Shown here one piece after another: positions 3,187-36,209 of a DNA stretch of 64,000 bases. The DNA comes from Polychytrium aggregatum. Lineage: Eukaryota > Chytridiomycota > Chytridiomycetes > Polychytriales. The DNA lies in the NCBI RefSeq assembly GCF_025602895.1, contig NW_026516211.1, positions 372,001-436,000 of the forward strand, given 5' to 3'. The first letter of the stretch is position 1, and each line of letters begins with the position of its first letter. The notes beneath the pieces were generated by a model. That model made no database searches. It was not told the DNA's origin and worked only from the letters and a program-made list of their open reading frames with translations. A program made the position numbers and the translations under genes.

Positions 3187-6100
3187 ATGGCCACCCCGCC
3201 ACCACATCATTCTGCGGCTCCGGGCGCTCAAGAGGACGTCTTCCTCTTCGAACGGTCCCAGGTCGCAGCATGGTCGTCGCAGCCCCCTGTAAGTGTCATC
3301 GACACATGTCTCCGATGCCGTGCTGTCGCCCTGCCGAAATCAGAGTCCGCAGGCGTATGTGTGCTTTGGTCCGGCCACTCACCCCTTGCATGGCTTCGAT
3401 CTTTTGCGACGGCACGCCCAATACTCATGTGTGCTGCGGCAACCATCCATAGGAAACCAAGAGATATCTCCCTCCGCAGACCGATCCAAACTATTCAGAT
3501 CTTCCTGGACGCATCCTGGCAAACGTCGCCTCAGTAGTCGCCGGTGCACTCGATGGAACTGTGCTTTCACCCTCGATCCCACCGTCTCTACTCAAATCTC
3601 TTCCAAAGACCCAGCACCCACACACAATCCAACTCTCTCCCTGCAGGGCGTATTTGGCGATTCTCTTTGAAGACAGGCTCCAGATACGCTTCTGTGATTC
3701 CGAGTCACACAGCGCCGTCGGCATGGTCCTCGAGCGCGACGACTTTCCGGGCTGGCGCAAGCTGTGCTGGTCGCCCGACTCCAAGTTCCTGGCCATCGCC
3801 TCCAGCATCGGCTCGATTCGGGTCGTGCATATCGAAAGCGCTGGCTACTGCACCATTGGTCCGCACGTCACCAAACCCCACTCGGTACCATCGTCGGTCT
3901 GGATCGATTGGGAAAAATATGGAGTCGACCCACGCAAGGAGCGTCTCGGCATCGTCGATCCGTTCTGCTTTCTGGCATTCACTGACCTCGGTCCGATCCA
4001 GGCCGATGGGCACTCCTACACCCACCGGCTTGTGTCCATCAACTACAGCGGCATGTTGGTCTCTTATATCCTGAACGAGGCCGAGTTTTCACGCACATCT
4101 GCAGACCGCAAATTTCCGCTGCATCTCCCAAAATGCACCCGGGAACATCCCGACCTCCTGGTCTTTGACCATGCTGCTTCCTTCCAGTCAACCCACTCGT
4201 ATATCTCGGCTGTCCTGCTCGATCCTCAATCCAAGGCCCTGATTCTCTCGGGCAAGCCAGCACCACAAAAAGCTAGCTCGTCTGCATCGGCCTCGCCAGA
4301 GGACTTCATTACCCGATGGACCATCCACGACTCCGCGCCCCACTATCGTGCGGCCGAACCCTCGGCTCTGTCGCCCGCGGAAGAATGCGCCATCTCGGCC
4401 GATGCCGATGGATTCTGGTACAGCGTCAGCAAGATGTTTTCCATTTGGAGCTCCTCCCCAGCCTCTACCGCCGGCTTGGTCCACCATCTCGCGCTCTCCC
4501 CTGACTCTTCGCTACTTGCATCGCTGGATACGAATGGCCTCCTCAAGATCTGGCGGCTGCACCCGATGGAGCTGCTCCACGTATGGAGTAGCAAAGCTCT
4601 TTCCGAAGCCTACCTGCCATCCTCGTCGTCAGCACTTTCCAAATCGCTGCCTCCGACAGAAACTCCTGCTGTGGTCTCGACCGTGGAGTGGTGGTCTCCA
4701 ACCAGCGTGGCGCTCACCTTTTCCAACGGCAGTCTTGTTCTGGCTGCCTTGCCATCTCTCAGCAATCTGCTCGGCGACAAGCCCGAACTATTCAATGACC
4801 CTCGTCCCGTCATCGCTCCGATCCCCAATGAAAAGTTGTATGCCCTCGAGTGCGATCGGCAGGTTCTCCGATACCAGTTTGTCCGCTATGGCCCCTCCTG
4901 GCGAATGGTTCGCGTCAATGCCGAAGCCGATGCGGCCCACCCACAAAGCACCGCCGCTGCCGCCCAGTTGACTCTAGCCGAATGGATTGCGGCTCTTGTG
5001 TCCGAAAGACTCGCCTTTATCACCCAGGTCTTTGTTGGCGATGTCGCTGGCCCGGCCGCACCTGAGACTCGGCCTCCAGTCTCGGTAGTCGAGAGCAGCT
5101 ATACTCTCTGGACGGTGGTCAAGATGACGGTCCACGACGCCATTTCGCGCAAGCTCGAGCTGCGCGAATACAGCCAAGCCCTGGCGCTGGCCCAGCGATT
5201 TGGCATCAACCCCGACAGAATCTACCAACACCAATGGACACACGAGCCGCTCACTGAAGAGTCAGTCCCGGCGTGTCTTGGGCAGATAAAGGACCGCTCG
5301 TGGGTTCTTGACGTCTGTCTGAGTCGCATTCCCGACCACCCCCGACTGGCGCGGCAGCTACTTCTCTATGCCCTTGACCAGACAGGCATCGTCAAAGAGC
5401 ACGATGTCGATACCGAAATCGAGGATGTCCTCTCCGGTGCCCCGACCGACTTTGAATCCAGCGCCGCACACCTGCAGCGGACACGATTTCTCCAACAATA
5501 TGCGCTGCAAGATGCCATCCTGCCGTCCACCGATATCTTGATTCTCTATCGAAGGAAAGCGCTGCACTACCTTGCCATGCTCGAGACCCACCAAGCGATC
5601 TACGCCTCGGCTGACTACTCCCAGTTCCCCCACAAGTACAGCACATTCCCCCTCCACCTTGCCCACTTTCGCGACTCTGGTCTCTTGAAGCTGGCTGAGG
5701 AGTTTGCTGTCTGTGGCAATGTCACTGCCCTCGAGGTCATGCTGACTCGCCATGGGGCGGAGCTGCTTAACTATCGCATCTCGCTATTGAATTTGATCCC
5801 AGAGAGCGTCGATCCAGAGACGTACAGTCGTTTGCTGCCGCGTATCGACGCTAGAACTGACACTGAGGAACTCTGGGTCACGATCCCATGGCGCGTCAAG
5901 GACTGGTCTGAAGCGTCGCAGATTGTCGACGAGTTCTTGATCATGACCGACTCCGATGATCCCGCAACAGCACGGCCCAGGATTGCGGCCACCGAGACCA
6001 CCCTTCTTGCTCGCCGCGAGTATCCGTTGGCGCATAGCGAGCTCACCGATTGGTACATTCGTCGAGCCTACGAAATCGAGGAAAGGTCTGGGCTCGTCAA

Positions 6101-31525: not shown

Positions 31526-32558
31526 TTACTGTTCGCCGACCAGTTTCTGCACCCGCTTAAGCACCGAGTCTGCATCATGCCGTCAAGGGTCACAGCGCTG
31601 GTAAGCTGGAGGATTCTCATTGACAACGAAAGAAACGGCGAGCCGGTACAGCACCGAGGAGGCTACAGGCCAGGGAATCAACGCAGGGATCGGACACGGC
31701 GCAGGCGACGCACCTTTGGAGGGATCATAAGGATGGTCCTTTGACGGAATCTCCAGCACCGTCGGGAAGGCAGCTTCGTGGGCCTCGACGAGCTCGCGGA
31801 TATCATCAGCCACCTGCAGTACGAGTCGAGTTCGAGTGGTGAATTCACACATTTGTCGACCGTCCCGCTCGCCAGACAGGCACGCGCAATCCGGCGGCGA
31901 GCCGATGGCGGCAGAATGCAGAATGCTCTGGTAGTTACATGCTGGTTGATCAGGATGATGGCAATGTCCTTGCGTGACGTGAACTCGGTGAAGGTTTCTT
32001 CGATCTTGGGAAGCGGCGTCTCTGGAGAAGAGGGAACGCCCGGCATCAGGCAATGACTCTCGAACGTGGCAGCATAACGCTGCAGCAGCACTGGCAGCAG
32101 CAAGAGATCGATTGTGGTCCGGCTGTGCCAGAGATGCGGTCCGGCACTCACTGGAGTCGACAATGAAAAAGTTGGATTTTTGCTTCGAGTCGATATGGCC
32201 GATGCCGGCCAAAAGCAGGCCGGTTACAGAGTCCTGGGTGCGATCGCAGTCAAGATATACAAATCAGACTCGGCGTTGTCGATGCTCCCGGTGACATTGC
32301 CGATGCTCCCGATGACATTGCCGATGGTCCCGATGACATTGCCGATGGAAATGACGCTGTCGGCCCCGGCGCCGGTGCCAACGCCCAGCAATCGTGCGTA
32401 TTGTTTATATCGACGAGCTGGGCTGCCGGCTGCTGTATCGACCAGACGCGATGCGAGCCCCAAAGCAAGCAGATGCAGCGAGACAGCATGTCGAAATCCC
32501 GGGTGCCAACCTCGTCTCCGATGACGGCGATCAGAGTGCGGTCCTTTTGGAATGACAT
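31526..32558 (-). CDS. VMA7: V-type proton ATPase subunit F
   Basis: A subunit of the V1 central stalk of the vacuolar proton pump. Five exons in phase: 32558-32511, 32233-32152, 32021-31939, 31813-31714, 31569-31526, giving 118 residues, the normal length for subunit F. The sequence carries the family landmarks [58 protein letters not shown] and [14 protein letters not shown], and ends [14 protein letters not shown]. Intron 1 has a non-consensus GTTGGC donor and contains a small tandem repeat. Confidence 0.96.
32278..32350. repeat. ~18-bp tandem repeat in VMA7 intron 1
   Basis: Three to four imperfect copies of an approximately 18-base unit (CCGATGSTCCCGATGACATTG-like) within VMA7 intron 1. 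Confidence 0.7.
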
Positions 32559-32801
32559 GGTGATGCGTGTGCTTTGGAGAGTGCTGGTGTAGAGACGATC
32601 GAGACGGAGCTCAATCCGAGGAGGTTTTGCGCTGGGGTTGGGCGCTATCCAAGCAAGCGGGATTGGGCATGCACTATGAAAAAATTTCTTGTTAAAAAAA
32701 TGAGCGAGAACGACAAAACGCGCTCTCGGAGCCACCTCGGTCGGCGAGAAGAGCAGTCTCTGGCGAGAGACCCCCGAGGGAAGGCGAGAAGCCTCTCGCC
32801 G

Positions 32802-32857
<56 letters not shown>

Positions 32858-33899
32858 TGCACAAGAGAGTCAAACACCTCCCATCGACCATCCCAAGAGG
32901 GATGGCAACCCCGAAGTGGACTGCCCAGAATATGGGCGACCCGGCATCCACTGTCGAAATGCACAAGGAACAGTGCGAGATACTTACAGTCAATCCAGAA
33001 AGAAACGGGACAGATCCCATTTCGGGCATCAGATGTCTGAAGCCCGCTGACTGACTTGTAGGCCCAGTGAGCAAGCCATGGCATTGCACTCCTGTCTTCG
33101 TTGGCAATCTCTTTGTTTTGGTTGGTTTGGGAAGCACAGTCTTGAATACACCCGGTCGATCTCCTGTGGCGATGATCGACTGGCATACCGAGATCATGTT
33201 CCTGGCTGCATTGATGTCTCGATCCCACAACGTATGGCAGCTTGCACAGCTCCGGACAAAGTGTGGTTTCTCGATATCAAGATGCTCGGGTGACTCAAGT
33301 CGCTTGAATTCCCGACAATGTGAGCACACCTGGGATGTGTTGAACTCGTTCACCGAGCACACATGGATCTTGGAGACGGATCGGTCTGGTGGTCGTCTCT
33401 GGTGATGGTGGAACTGCTCGAAATACTTGGCAAACCTGAGTCTCCTGGGACTGGATGCGTATCCCTTCCCCTGTTTCCAGGATGCATTCCCAAAGGCAAT
33501 CACCACTTCGGTCTCCCTTGGTGCTTGGTCGATGACTCGCTTGCACATCTCGTGGACGGTGCGCTGTCGCTTGCTGTGGAGATCAAGCCGTTTGAATCGC
33601 CGTCGCCGGGTCAGGCTGAAGTACAGCTGTTTCTCCAGCATGTCTCCATCGAACACATGGCGAATATATCGCAAGAAGGAAGCCAACCCAGGGATCTTGG
33701 GGCTCGGTGTGGCACTCATCCATTCCTGCAGACCAAGGATCTTGTGGGTGCTCTGGATCCACTTGGTCGCCTGGGTGGTGTCTTTCTCTTGCGGGGAGCC
33801 ATCTGGCGAGAAAATAGCGACGATGGCTAGTCCTGTTCTTGGGGAAGAGAGAATCTCCTCAAAACCAGCGCATTTTGGGCTGGCAGAGTTGTTGTTCAC
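32802..33899 (-). CDS. Fanzor (TnpB-like) nuclease, C-terminal part
   Basis: An open frame of about 365 codons whose middle matches the C-terminal nuclease half of Fanzor proteins, the eukaryotic relatives of TnpB/Cas12 that use an omega-RNA guide. Visible in order: an Arg-rich helix (RRRRFKRLDLHSKRQRTVHE), VVIAFGNASW, the RuvC-II strand with a candidate catalytic Glu (IHVCSVNEFNTSQ, residue about 185), a zinc ribbon with CSHC and CASC pairs (about 192-221), and RuvC-III DRDINAARN (about 226-234). No clear RuvC-I Asp was found; the frame is closed upstream by a stop and the first ATG is internal. It is therefore 5'-truncated or missing an exon. A GTAAGT at 32987 may splice out the CA-encoded tail. 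Confidence 0.8.
32803..32855. repeat. (CA)n microsatellite, about 26 repeats
   Basis: An uninterrupted CA dinucleotide tract of 53 bases, just beyond the 3' side of the Fanzor reading frame. Read in the Fanzor frame it would give a Val-Cys run, which is probably not translated. Confidence 0.98.
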
Positions 33900-34670
33900 A
33901 GTGGCGTCCTTGATTCAGATCCAGAAACGCATCGCTCGCTCAATCAGTCGTGGGAAGACATCTTGTCAAGGTGAGTCTTGCCTGATAGCCAAACGATCAT
34001 GTCATCTCGCTGACACACAGCCACGCTTGACTAGGTTTCCAACCAGAGAGATTCAGATGGTGGTGGTTCTTGTCCGCAATCGGAGTGGAGCTTCCAACAA
34101 TGATACAATTGGTCATTCTTCCACACCAATCGCCCACCACCACCGTCAATCGGCTCAAGGTGATACCAAATGCCGTCAACCGACCATGGCCGGATTCCAA
34201 CTTTTGCTGCATCTTGGTCTACAGCGTGTATTCATATTCGAGATGAGCAGCCGCGAGGGGGACGGAAAAAATTGATAGTGATGGGTGAGGCTGCGGCTCG
34301 TCAGGTGGAAGCCGTCTCTCCCAACCTGCTCGCTCGCCAGGATCAGCTCAAGACTTCCAGACAGCTCTCGGGCACTAGCGCGGGTTCCATTCGTCCGGAT
34401 ACTTCGATGCGAGACTCCTCGACATATCAGCCTGGGCTTCGGCAGAGGCGTCAGCAAGCCGATGAGTCGCCTGCTGGGCTGCCGTGTGCTGGGATTGGGT
34501 TTTCGCCGATGGCAAATGCTCTCGGCGAGAAGAGTCGCGCTCTCGTTGGATTTTGCTCAAACGCACCAATCCAAAATCCACCGAACGGAGCCAGCATCCA
34601 TCTCCCGTCGCCCAAACGACGTCGCTGTTGGTTGTGCTGTTTGTCCCAGTCGTGCTAGCATCGTGTTGCC
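33900..34670. other. Flank upstream of Fanzor and of the MCUR1-like gene
   Basis: 771 bases. A minus-strand open frame at 34212-33997 ends just before the Fanzor frame and might be a remnant of its 5' part, but it carries no RuvC-I-like DPG motif. The plus-strand promoter of the next gene should lie in the right half. Nothing else supported. Confidence 0.4.
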
Positions 34671-36209
34671 ATGAGTCGCTTGGCCAGATCGGTTTCTTGG
34701 TCGTCTCAAATGGCCGGTCGCCTGCCCCGGCCACAGCTCGTGGCCATCCAGGCCCCTGCGCTGTCGATACTGCCAGAGACCCGACGTCCTGCGTCTCGAC
34801 GCCAGATGTCGTCCCAAATACCAACGAGCCCGGCGACGCCCCTACAGCCCAGCGCACTCCGCCCAACCATCGACTCGGTCGTGGCCACCTTCCTGCGAAA
34901 CTCCATCCCGAATCGGGGCATCATCGTTACTAGGTTCTCATTCGACACATACAAATTGGTCAAGCAGCTCGAGCGACAGGGCTTCAAGCGGTCTCAGGCC
35001 GTTGCCATAATGCGCATTATCAATGCGATACTTTTGGAAAGGTGCGATCCTTGCCGATGAAGCTTGGCCAGATGGCTGTCGTTGGAAGGGATCTTGTGTG
35101 GGCGATGAGTGCTGTGGCAGAACAATCGGATTGAGGAAGTCGCCCCAACAAGCATGAAGCGGCGGCTGGCTGTGCCAGCCGCTGGAAGCAACGCAGGCGA
35201 TCGACAGGGGCGTGCAGAATGCCATCGTTAAATCACAAGGAACATTCAAGCCGCTGACTTTGATTGAAACTGACCTCTCTAGCACCATGGACATCCGCTC
35301 GAAGCTTCTCTCCAAGACCGAGCTCGAGAATGTGCGTCCACTCGTCCCACCAGCTTCTATCCGCTGCAACAATGCAACAAATGCAGTCGCCGCTTTGCAT
35401 TTTGGGAGCAGGCACGGCTCTTAGTCGGGTGGGCAGACCGTCCTTCATGGCCGCTCGACTCTCCTGGCCCCGGCATACAACGCCGCCTTCCTGAGAGCCC
35501 ACCTACTTTGGTAACGCACTGATCCGCTCGCTACATGTCCACAGGAGTCTTACCTGTACAAAGCGGATCTTCAAGAGCTTCGGAACGAACTTCAGCTGCT
35601 GCGCCAGAACGACACGGCTAATCTCAAGACCGATAGCGAGGCTATCTTGCGAGACATCGAGGCGCTCAACCAAAAGTTCGCCGACAAGATCGCCTCGCTC
35701 AAGAGCGAGGTTGCAATCGACATGAACATTCACAAGTCCGAGAGCCGCGAACACGGCATGGATCTCAATCTGCGAATGCAAGAGATCAACCACAAGCTGG
35801 TCCTACGTATCAGCGATCTCAAAACAAACATCGAAACCATGAAGATCGACACGACTCGTATGATCGTTTGTAAGTTAGTGAGGAGCCAAGATGGCTGTAC
35901 TGCTGGACGGAGCGGGTGTAGCGCAGCGTAAAGAGCGGTAATGTATTCGCCAGGGTCGACAGTGGCTCAAGAATCAAAGCGAGCCCCAGTATTAGTTATG
36001 ATGCGCGAGATAGGCTGACCAACATGGCGACTGTACTAGGGTATCTACTGCTCACTCTGAGCGTGCTCATCGGCGTGGACTACCTCCTTGCCTTGGGGAC
36101 TGAGAAGGAGAAGCACAAGCCGGCCACCAGTGGCTTTTCAGGCATCAACGACTTGATCGATGAAGGTGTTCGCCACATTGTCATTGAGACCGCATCGCAC
36201 AAGGAATAG
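34671..36209 (+). CDS. MCUR1/FMP32-type mitochondrial coiled-coil protein
   Basis: A member of the CCDC90/MCUR1 family (DUF1640), inner mitochondrial membrane proteins linked to the calcium uniporter, cytochrome oxidase assembly or proline use depending on the species. Four exons in phase give about 304 residues: 34671-35041, 35283-35331, 35545-35869, 36040-36209. The N-terminus is Arg/Ser-rich without acids (MSRLARSVSWSSQMAGRLPR), as expected of a mitochondrial presequence. The signature FDTYKLVKQLERQGF is followed by TMDIRSKLLSKTELEN and a long coiled coil (YLYKADLQELRNELQLLRQN). A single membrane helix near the end (LLLTLSVLIGVDYLLAL) precedes a short tail. Family assignment is confident; the exact function is not. 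Confidence 0.9.

Follow-up and report, generated by a model that had tools for sequence, protein, structure and literature searches.

A probable internally deleted, Fanzor-carrying CACTA-type transposon in the chytrid Polychytrium aggregatum

The stretch of DNA considered here (the window) comprises 64,000 nucleotides of the chytrid fungus Polychytrium aggregatum, positions 372,001 to 436,000 of contig NW_026516211.1 (RefSeq assembly GCF_025602895.1). Relatives of its contents were sought in the genome assembly, which has 64.7 Mb in 418 contigs. In keeping with a zoosporic fungus, the assembly has matches to chitin synthase 2 of up to 765 bits, although this family also gives matches in 4 of 14 control genomes, and radial-spoke matches, of which the 14 controls have none. 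Between an ATP-synthase-F-like gene and a CCDC90-like gene, the window carries a 1,609-bp element that holds part of the gene for a Fanzor-type nuclease (Table 1). The ends of the element read CACTATCAATTTTTTCC and CACTATGAAAAAATTTC, and it is flanked by a perfect 3-bp target site duplication (TSD), ATG/ATG on the plus strand. The 1,600 bp of flank on each side have no second place in the assembly, thus there is no empty site for comparison.

The open frame on the minus strand is real. It runs from stop to stop over 370 codons (33914-32802), carries NEFNTSQVCSHC...CASCHTLWDRDINAARN, and matches PF07282 (Cas12f1-like_TNB) with 41.6 bits (E 1.4e-10; cut-off, 26.3 bits). Given that its 221-aa core has 150 scored relatives in the same genome, out of 1,441 candidates, it is not a chance frame. 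The final ~19 codons consist of a (GT)n microsatellite; 31 of the 38 copies examined have a stop 27-41 codons past the core, which the window copy lacks. An initial annotation, made from the letters alone, had described a TnpB/Fanzor-type nuclease fragment without RuvC-I and the N-terminal part. This description holds, since the best profile match is the TnpB/Cas12f zinc-ribbon family and no unrelated zinc-ribbon family matched better. The "intact RuvC-II" of the same annotation stands only in part: the presumed alternative Glu is present (VNEFNTS), but VVIAFGNASW, read by eye, has no acidic residue at what we take to be the usual RuvC-II place.

Other comparisons of the frame gave weaker matches. 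The NCBIfam model guided_TnpB scores 27.3 bits in the window and 22.7 bits in the full-length relative L011, both under its cut-off of 100. Two sequence searches of the PDB gave weak matches to Cas12m, the TnpB-like L79 and TranC (E 0.026-0.13 and 0.012-0.062); in the second, made with the core, Cas12m stands at E 0.012 and TnpB L79 at E 0.027. Engineered TPR proteins scored better there by whole-sequence E-value (0.00039 and 0.00067); they were set aside, as they cover 28 residues only, with no stretch passing alone. PF07282 was also sought across the genome: 150 matches were scored of 663 candidates, all 150 above the cut-off and in several groups. Beside the window family these include frames of about 477, 447 and 702-861 aa, and one group has many near-identical scores. 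To judge from these matches, several Fanzor/TnpB-type families of high copy number appear to be present in the genome.

Full-length relatives of the element measure 3.35-3.77 kb. The whole protein lies in one frame from a common start in 17 of the 20 long copies that were fetched, and it has 853-933 aa to the first stop, mostly 853-890. PF07282 is matched in L011 (E 3.4e-10), which also provides the residue numbering used here. The published C-terminal motif of Fanzor and TnpB is D-X(125,275)-[TS][TS]XX-C4 zinc finger-X(5,50)-RD (PMC3627910). The full-length protein has D558, T756 and S757 (198 apart), C760/C763/C786/C789, a spacer of five residues, and R795 D796; these residues are invariant in 12 aligned full copies, except R795, which is nearly so. 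In Fanzor, the RuvC-I signature is DPG and an alternative Glu (Ealt) replaces the canonical one (PMC10711439). D558-P559-G560 is invariant in the 12 full-length copies and absent from the window copy, while E753 (in VNEFNTS, three residues before T756) is invariant in the 12 and present in the window copy; E753 can be read as the Ealt position. The same copies share two N-terminal C-X2-C-X4-H-X7-C knuckles, of which one Cys is only nearly invariant. These motifs and PF07282 argue for assigning the full-length relatives to Fanzor. Their carriage, with terminal inverted repeats (TIRs) and TSD and not of the IS607 kind, is as for Fanzor1, and some Fanzor2 are likewise non-IS607 (PMC10711439).

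The window copy keeps [TS][TS]XX-C4-RD of this motif. The RuvC-I Asp and DPG are missing because of an internal deletion, so the full motif is not found. By its sequence, the window copy is a Fanzor derivative and not a working Fanzor gene.

Several further relatives were encountered. A second subfamily (L015, L016 and L026) has nearly the same Fanzor, with 81-84% identity to L011, and ends unrelated to the CACTA-type ends described below; it may be that this nuclease gene travels on two different carriers within the genome, or else that the ends of this subfamily went unrecognised. In L026, a 713-aa frame directly downstream of the Fanzor (3744-5882) matches PF19254 (DUF5901) below threshold (E 4.8e-6, 26.1 bits against 26.4) and phrog_28581 (E 8.8e-5), and may, as a guess, be virus-like. 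A search for viral relatives gave 52 pattern stretches, none of which was confirmed. The 3.7-kb full copies have ~366 bp extra before the start codon, ending in AG (about 450-820 of the L022 element), possibly an intron or an alternative promoter. More distant Fanzor relatives lie at C299:7387-8832 and C408:861787-863262, with 41% and 39% identity to the N-part and frames of 851 and 803 aa.

The window copy lacks ~1.8 kb, from a few codons after the start codon to ~50 codons after the RuvC-I Asp. The junction is identical in all 21 aligned short copies (the window copy and L029-L048), and the microhomology CACC is present in both parents shown. The simple reading is one deletion event, followed by amplification. 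The initial annotation had offered a 5'-truncated copy or a multi-exon gene with unrecognised first exons. Neither fits: both ends and the TSD are present, and the missing part is internal. A multi-exon gene, of which the first exons were missed, might be entertained given that a neighbouring gene has introns. However, none of the 82 places listed as matching the N-terminal 533 aa lies in the window, the protein can be read without an intron in 17 of the 20 long copies, and the element ends in its TIR 500 bp upstream of the core. This alternative was rejected, and we give it practically no credence.

The deletion also puts the family start codon out of the frame of the core. The 28-codon frame that it now opens ends in ATGA, overlapping the first Met of the core. 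Because this Met lies in full-length copies too (WMSTTPSPK), the overlap is a by-product of the deletion.

Transposons of the CACTA (EnSpm) type have TIRs starting CACTA/G and a 3-bp TSD. The window element has CACTAT at both ends, and such ends together with 3-bp duplications point to CACTA/EnSpm as the carrier. Forty relatives (L009-L048) were fetched and make a set of 41 with the window copy. Both ends were recognised in 31 of them, of which 19 have identical 3-bp flanks, at 16 distinct sites. A two-end TIR pattern has 165 matches in the genome, and its reversed control has none. Adjacent TIR pairs (30 among the 100 places listed) are 295 bp (1), 1,550-1,627 bp (15) or 3,353-3,767 bp (14) long.

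The CACTA transposase family PF02992 (TNP2) has 29 matches in the genome. At one TNP2 locus (L049) and in the end stretches of five more copies (L050-L059), the element end reads CACTATGAAAAAAAAG, and the far end reads ...TTTTTTTCATCGTG in five of the six. The exact 16-mer CACTATGAAAAAAAAG has 22 matches in the genome (24 with one mismatch allowed; control, 2). For all but one of the 22, the start is 2,290-2,291 bp away from a TNP2 hit, and 21 of the 29 hits have such a partner. The 3' end of the Fanzor element is the same as this TNP2 end over the first 13 bp, sharing CACTATGAAAAAA; its 5' end agrees with the TNP2 end in eight of the first nine bases, and the far TNP2 end reads CACGATGAAAAAAA (starting CACGATG). 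No TNP2 transposase was seen inside the Fanzor element, and a TNP2-type transposase may move these elements in trans.

Could the carrier instead belong to some other superfamily of TIR transposons that makes 3-bp duplications? PIF/Harbinger elements likewise make such duplications (PMC2213677), no element with both Fanzor and TNP2 was seen, and the likeness of the ends is short. Nonetheless, the ends begin CACTA and the 3' end shares its first bases with 21 TNP2 elements of the same genome, and we regard another superfamily as improbable. Our preferred reading, which we hold with considerable confidence, is that the window element is non-autonomous and derives, by internal deletion, from a Fanzor-carrying CACTA-type DNA transposon.

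A subterminal array shared by the Fanzor and TNP2 elements was not seen: TTCTCGC occurs at 469, 1491, 1531 and 1571 of the window element and at 97 and 929 of the TNP2 element. The conserved 3' segment of the Fanzor element, described below, was for this reason dropped as a set of subterminal transposase-binding repeats, although binding of another transposase is still conceivable. As for the TNP2 elements themselves, three matches of equal score that share their 5' end are found in a stretch of about 21 kb (C201:119948-141398), and two elements apparently face each other with their 3' ends 36 bp apart (L049:330-365); this suggests recent CACTA activity.

Why the truncated frame is still open is a separate matter. 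The 663-bp core is free of stops and indels in all 41 copies, a sample biased towards intact frames since the 20 fetched short copies are the top protein matches. A wider view is given by the core matches scored (150 of 1,441 candidates), of which 97 have no N-part within 2.5 kb, a class checked at junction level for 21 copies only, and 53 have one. Among the 97 are 77 complete cores, four of them with stops (five stop codons), and one of the 20 incomplete cores also has a stop. The 53 consist of 49 complete and four incomplete cores, none with stops. The 29 singletons private to the 21 short copies, together with a stop share of 4.4%, predict about 4.9 stops for the 77 complete cores without N-part, where five are seen; for the 49 full copies the prediction is 3.4, and none is seen (p 0.03).

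Core divergence is 5.3% between short copies, 6.3% between full copies and 6.1% between short and full, and the pairwise ratio of nonsynonymous to synonymous divergence (dN/dS) is 0.27 among short and 0.23 among full copies. Variants common to both classes are 56 nonsynonymous (N) and 65 synonymous (S), with one stop-making change on the majority codon. Private singletons have N:S of 21:8 in short and 17:9 in full copies (23:12 and 22:14 over all 41 rows), where neutrality would give 2.4-3.2 : 1. The short-private singletons fit the neutral expectation (p 0.66-1.0) and differ from the shared variants (p 0.013), which look as if they had been filtered in full copies. CpG decay or repeat-induced mutation is an unlikely source of the shared sites, as 69 of the 122 changes are transitions and 24 are A/C.

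Since private N:S and the stop count are both near the neutral expectation, the fragment needs no selection of its own. Weak selection may still act on it, because private N:S shows no detectable difference between short and full copies (p 0.77 and 0.81). The constraint that the initial annotation had suggested for the long frame is not borne out, the family start codon also being out of frame. A stronger version would have the truncated frame encode a protein under selection, which might bind guide RNA or compete with Fanzor and would be translated by reinitiation at the ATGA over the first Met of the core. The low dN/dS among short copies, the 73 stop-free cores among the 77 complete ones without N-part, and the similar private N:S of the two classes would agree with this, and the ATGA overlap, the one pointer to reinitiation, could allow it. 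However, variants that also occur in full copies account for most of the low dN/dS, whereas the private ones stand at 21:8, and the overlap is a by-product of the deletion. We consider a selected protein very unlikely.

A further source of open frames is exchange between copies, examined by linkage on this element family alone. The core tree has short and full copies intermixed. The cores of 21 short and 17 full copies have 85 sites polymorphic in both classes, 47 in short only and 37 in full only, with no fixed differences. All four combinations occur in 46% of informative site pairs, compared with 10-18% in 15 simulations on the fitted tree without recombination. The squared correlation between sites (r2) is 0.114 at 1-25 bp and falls to about 0.03 at 26-75 bp and beyond, and the simulations show no such drop. 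Linkage also decays in the N-part of the 17 full copies, somewhat more slowly, and a distance-ordered incompatibility test gives p 0.003 for all 40 distinct rows. Single copies tell the same story: the short L037 and the full L019 differ at 2/663 positions in the core, 17/368 upstream and 18/250 downstream, and only 7 of 38 copies have the same nearest neighbour in the 5' part and the core, or 5 of 38 in the core and tail.

It might be held that the short copy is an ordinary dead relic, too young to have decayed, and that the shared variation reflects many lineages without any exchange. The neutral private changes (21 N : 8 S) and the stop frequency would be as expected. This is difficult to reconcile with the interleaved tree, the core tract shared by L037 and L019, and the drop in r2 and the excess of incompatible pairs that recombination-free simulations do not reproduce; we regard it as rather improbable.

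Pairs of elements with the same flanks provide another view. Five were found among 32 copies with both ends located; besides L038/L039, they are L009/L014, L020/L027, L030/L031 and L032/L041. In four of them the interiors differ at 52/1544, 60/1591, 88/3428 and 176/3378 positions (2.6-5.2%), not counting gap columns (115 and 77 in two of the pairs), while the longer flanks differ at 5/2937, 8/3276, 3/4287 and 3/4094 (at most 0.24%). For 97 of the 111 core differences in these four pairs both states are found in other copies, and in three of these pairs the differences form clusters. L038/L039, the fifth pair, shows 0/1565 differences inside the element and 5/3249 in the flanks. With a caveat as to assembly polishing, these data show statistically that copies exchange patches, short with full, in a pattern as from patchwise gene conversion.

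The caveat is that repeat polishing may have moved variants between copies during assembly, which would likewise leave unique flanks clean and repeats mixed, as seen. The interior of L038/L039 without a substitution in 1,565 aligned bp, next to flanks that do differ, argues against it, as does the stop-free state of all 49 complete cores with N-part. Exchange below 75 bp would, moreover, be finer than expected from mis-mapped reads. An exchange signal made by polishing is, on balance, unlikely, if not to be dismissed lightly. The open frame of the fragment is best explained by youth together with exchange with intact copies.

Guide RNAs of Fanzor proteins offer a possible role for short copies. 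In Fanzor1 of insect viruses, the guide RNA includes the inverted repeat and the TSD and runs ~15 nt beyond (PMC10711439), and in Spu-1 the scaffold spans the 3' repeat (PMC10432273). The initial annotation had pointed to a possible omega-RNA on the 3' side (32.3-33.0 kb), and a conserved, structured candidate does lie there. This 110-bp segment, from the microsatellite to the 3' inverted repeat, has a diversity of 0.023 in short and 0.022 in full copies, compared with 0.053 and 0.063 for the core and 0.082 and 0.106 for third positions; a permutation against the rest of the short element gives 0.0027. It was ruled out as the most conserved part of the element, as a scan of windows found a lower value in the 5' block from element position 248. 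RNAalifold predicts a multi-stem structure with next to no covariation. The region 32672-32806 folds at -47.5 kcal/mol, with z -1.9 for the gene strand and -2.5 for its complement; at the 5' end, z is 0.3 for both strands. By analogy with Fanzor1, the guide of the window copy would be 32668-32654.

A 33-nt part of the 3' segment has 157 matches in the genome at up to three mismatches (control, 0) and at least 100 exact ones, one of which lies inside the 295-bp TIR pair (C21:111256-111550). This pair and a second very short locus (C1:78121-78324, with the 5' end 171 bp before the 3' segment) keep an end and the 3' segment. With little coding room, both are candidates for minimal guide-only loci.

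The target sites are asymmetric. Fifteen non-redundant copies have matching duplications; in 14 of them the duplication is preceded by A/C, in 13 it begins with T, and in 12 its third base is A/G. The mirror-image comparison gives Fisher values of 0.0017 and 0.021 for an idea drawn from the same data, and the signature is a lead. In three of six TNP2 copies a G precedes the presumed duplication, compared with none of 24 Fanzor-element 5' flanks (p 0.005). Such an asymmetry would fit either a target-adjacent motif overlapping the duplication or an orientation-specific transposase.

It is tempting to speculate further, namely that RNA-guided breaks by Fanzor drive copying between elements, which would make them a recombining population where tracts pass between short and full copies and where other copies serve as templates for rewriting the interiors at fixed sites. 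The target-adjacent motif would be the signature in the upstream flank (A/C followed by T-C-A/G, on the gene strand and spanning the TSD), and the short copies would be guide-RNA donors. This proposal is doubtful as yet, and we offer it as a long shot. If true, the cut-and-copy of a eukaryotic transposon would be recorded in genome sequence.

A less ambitious scheme accompanies the preferred reading of the element as an internally deleted CACTA-type copy. A TNP2-type transposase would move full and short forms in trans. Gap repair, halted early at short microhomology, would have made the deletion, after which the short form multiplied. Breaks by the transposase, and perhaps by Fanzor, repaired with template switching among copies, would give rise to both exchange and deletions; patch exchange and youth would then keep the frame of the fragment open without selection on it. 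The 3' segment, inverted repeat and TSD may be transcribed as a guide-RNA scaffold, with the downstream flank as guide, and short copies might provide the guides for a Fanzor that intact copies produce, in the manner of the Spu-1 ghost loci.

Several observations weigh against this account and have to be set beside the evidence for it. Firstly, the likeness to TNP2 ends extends over 13 bp at one end only, with eight of the first nine bases at the other, and the 3-bp duplication of TNP2 elements is clear in one of five copies with both ends. Secondly, no PDB Fanzor chain was matched by sequence, a single-sequence structure model of the window core has a predicted local distance difference test score (pLDDT) of 35 and no usable fold, and the placing of the N-terminal two thirds of the full-length protein rests on position and motifs. 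Thirdly, beside the bias of the fetched short copies towards intact frames and the indistinguishable private N:S, the frequency of copies with stops shows no detectable difference between classes (4/77 without and 0/49 with N-part; p 0.16). Fourthly, the distance-ordered test gives p 0.051 for short and p 0.091 for full copies alone, and the exchange signal could in part be a polishing artefact. Finally, 165 of 1,359 element windows are more conserved than the 3' segment, the fold of which is only mildly better than shuffles and not strand-specific.

Table 1. Features of the element and its surroundings, in window coordinates.
Feature	Position	Strand	Basis
Whole element, 1,609 bp, probable internally deleted Fanzor-carrying CACTA-like transposon	32672..34280	- (gene sense)	TIRs CACTATCAATTTTTTCC (5' end, 34280) and ...AAATTTTTTCATAGTG (3' end, 32672)
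5' terminal inverted repeat CACTATCAATTTTTTCC	34264..34280	-	TIR pattern, copy alignment
3' terminal inverted repeat region, ending AAATTTTTTCATAGTG	32672..32693	-	TIR pattern, copy alignment
TSD copy 1, ATG on + strand (CAT in gene sense)	32669..32671	.	sequence reading
TSD copy 2, ATG on + strand	34281..34283	.	sequence reading
Open frame with stop codon, stop to stop	32802..33914	-	frame and translation reading
Fanzor C-terminal core of 221 aa, with presumed alternative RuvC-II Glu, C4 zinc finger and RuvC-III	33117..33779	-	PF07282 match inside; 150 copies scored in genome
Junction of ~1.8-kb internal deletion, short microhomology	33773..33780	-	common to 21/21 aligned short copies; L011 and L022 for comparison
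Family start codon and frame now opened: 28 codons then stop, out of frame with core	33716..33802	-	frame reading
(GT)n microsatellite, 3' untranslated part	32804..32855 (element 1426-1477)	-	element alignment
Conserved structured 3' segment, candidate guide-RNA (omega/reRNA) scaffold	32694..32803	-	diversity, fold, copy number
Putative guide region, flank just past TSD	32654..32668	-	analogy with Fanzor1 reRNAs ~15 nt beyond TSD (PMC10711439)
Most conserved block of element, 5' untranslated part, possibly promoter	33921..34033 (element 248-360)	-	diversity 0.009 in short copies
Neighbouring gene, ATP synthase (F/14-kDa) subunit-like	31583..32263	-	PF01990 E 4.1e-9
Neighbouring gene, CCDC90-like, at least 2 exons	34659..35868	+	PF07798 E 3.5e-8 and 3.1e-25

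The role of RNA-guided cutting by Fanzor for their transposons is an open question (PMC10432273), and a proliferative advantage has been suggested (PMC10711439). With the family described here, a single genome combines numerous copies, both intact and shortened, with a plausible transposase and with a trace of inter-element copying that can be measured, and concrete predictions follow on the guide RNA, the target-adjacent motif and break-induced exchange. As far as literature searches show, CACTA-type elements are an addition to the known carriers of Fanzor: the searches gave no account of Fanzor in CACTA, EnSpm or CMC elements (one co-mention of EnSpm was incidental), and an earlier report may exist. 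As far as searched, the CACTA-type carrier, the frequent short form with the C-terminal part of the nuclease and the trace of exchange between copies are new.

DNA transposons that are internally deleted by abortive gap repair keep their ends, lose the interior at short microhomology and are moved in trans. The window finding is a real Fanzor fragment in an object of an ordinary kind, an internally deleted transposon; here, in contrast to such deletions in general, nuclease motifs and a candidate guide RNA lie in the part that was kept. Among known Fanzor systems, the Fanzor1 families in DNA transposons share the C-terminal motif and the position as a passenger protein in a transposon, and about 150 copies are known in one family, CMe-1A (PMC3627910). 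Neither CACTA nor EnSpm occurs in the text of that paper. The Fanzor1 of Spodoptera frugiperda ascovirus is alike in being the only protein of a non-autonomous TIR transposon, with a model in which the TIR and TSD are part of the guide-RNA scaffold; it differs in having two copies, a viral host and an unknown transposon family (PMC10711439).

A close parallel comes from Spu-1 and the ghost loci of Spizellomyces punctatus (SpuFz1; PMC10432273). There too a fungus has many Fanzor copies, with the gene between inverted repeats and no transposase inside them, many loci have ends and a guide-RNA region but no protein, and conserved bases (CA) lie just outside the 5' end. Set beside a ghost locus, which keeps its ends and guide-RNA region and has lost the Fanzor gene, the window copy has its ends and the candidate 3' segment and no in-frame start, but part of the gene remains. 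The Polychytrium family differs from Spu-1 in its CACTA-type ends, its 3-bp duplication and the presence of a TNP2 family with similar ends, as well as in the frequent 1.6-kb form that keeps the C-terminal part of the nuclease and in the evidence of exchange between copies.

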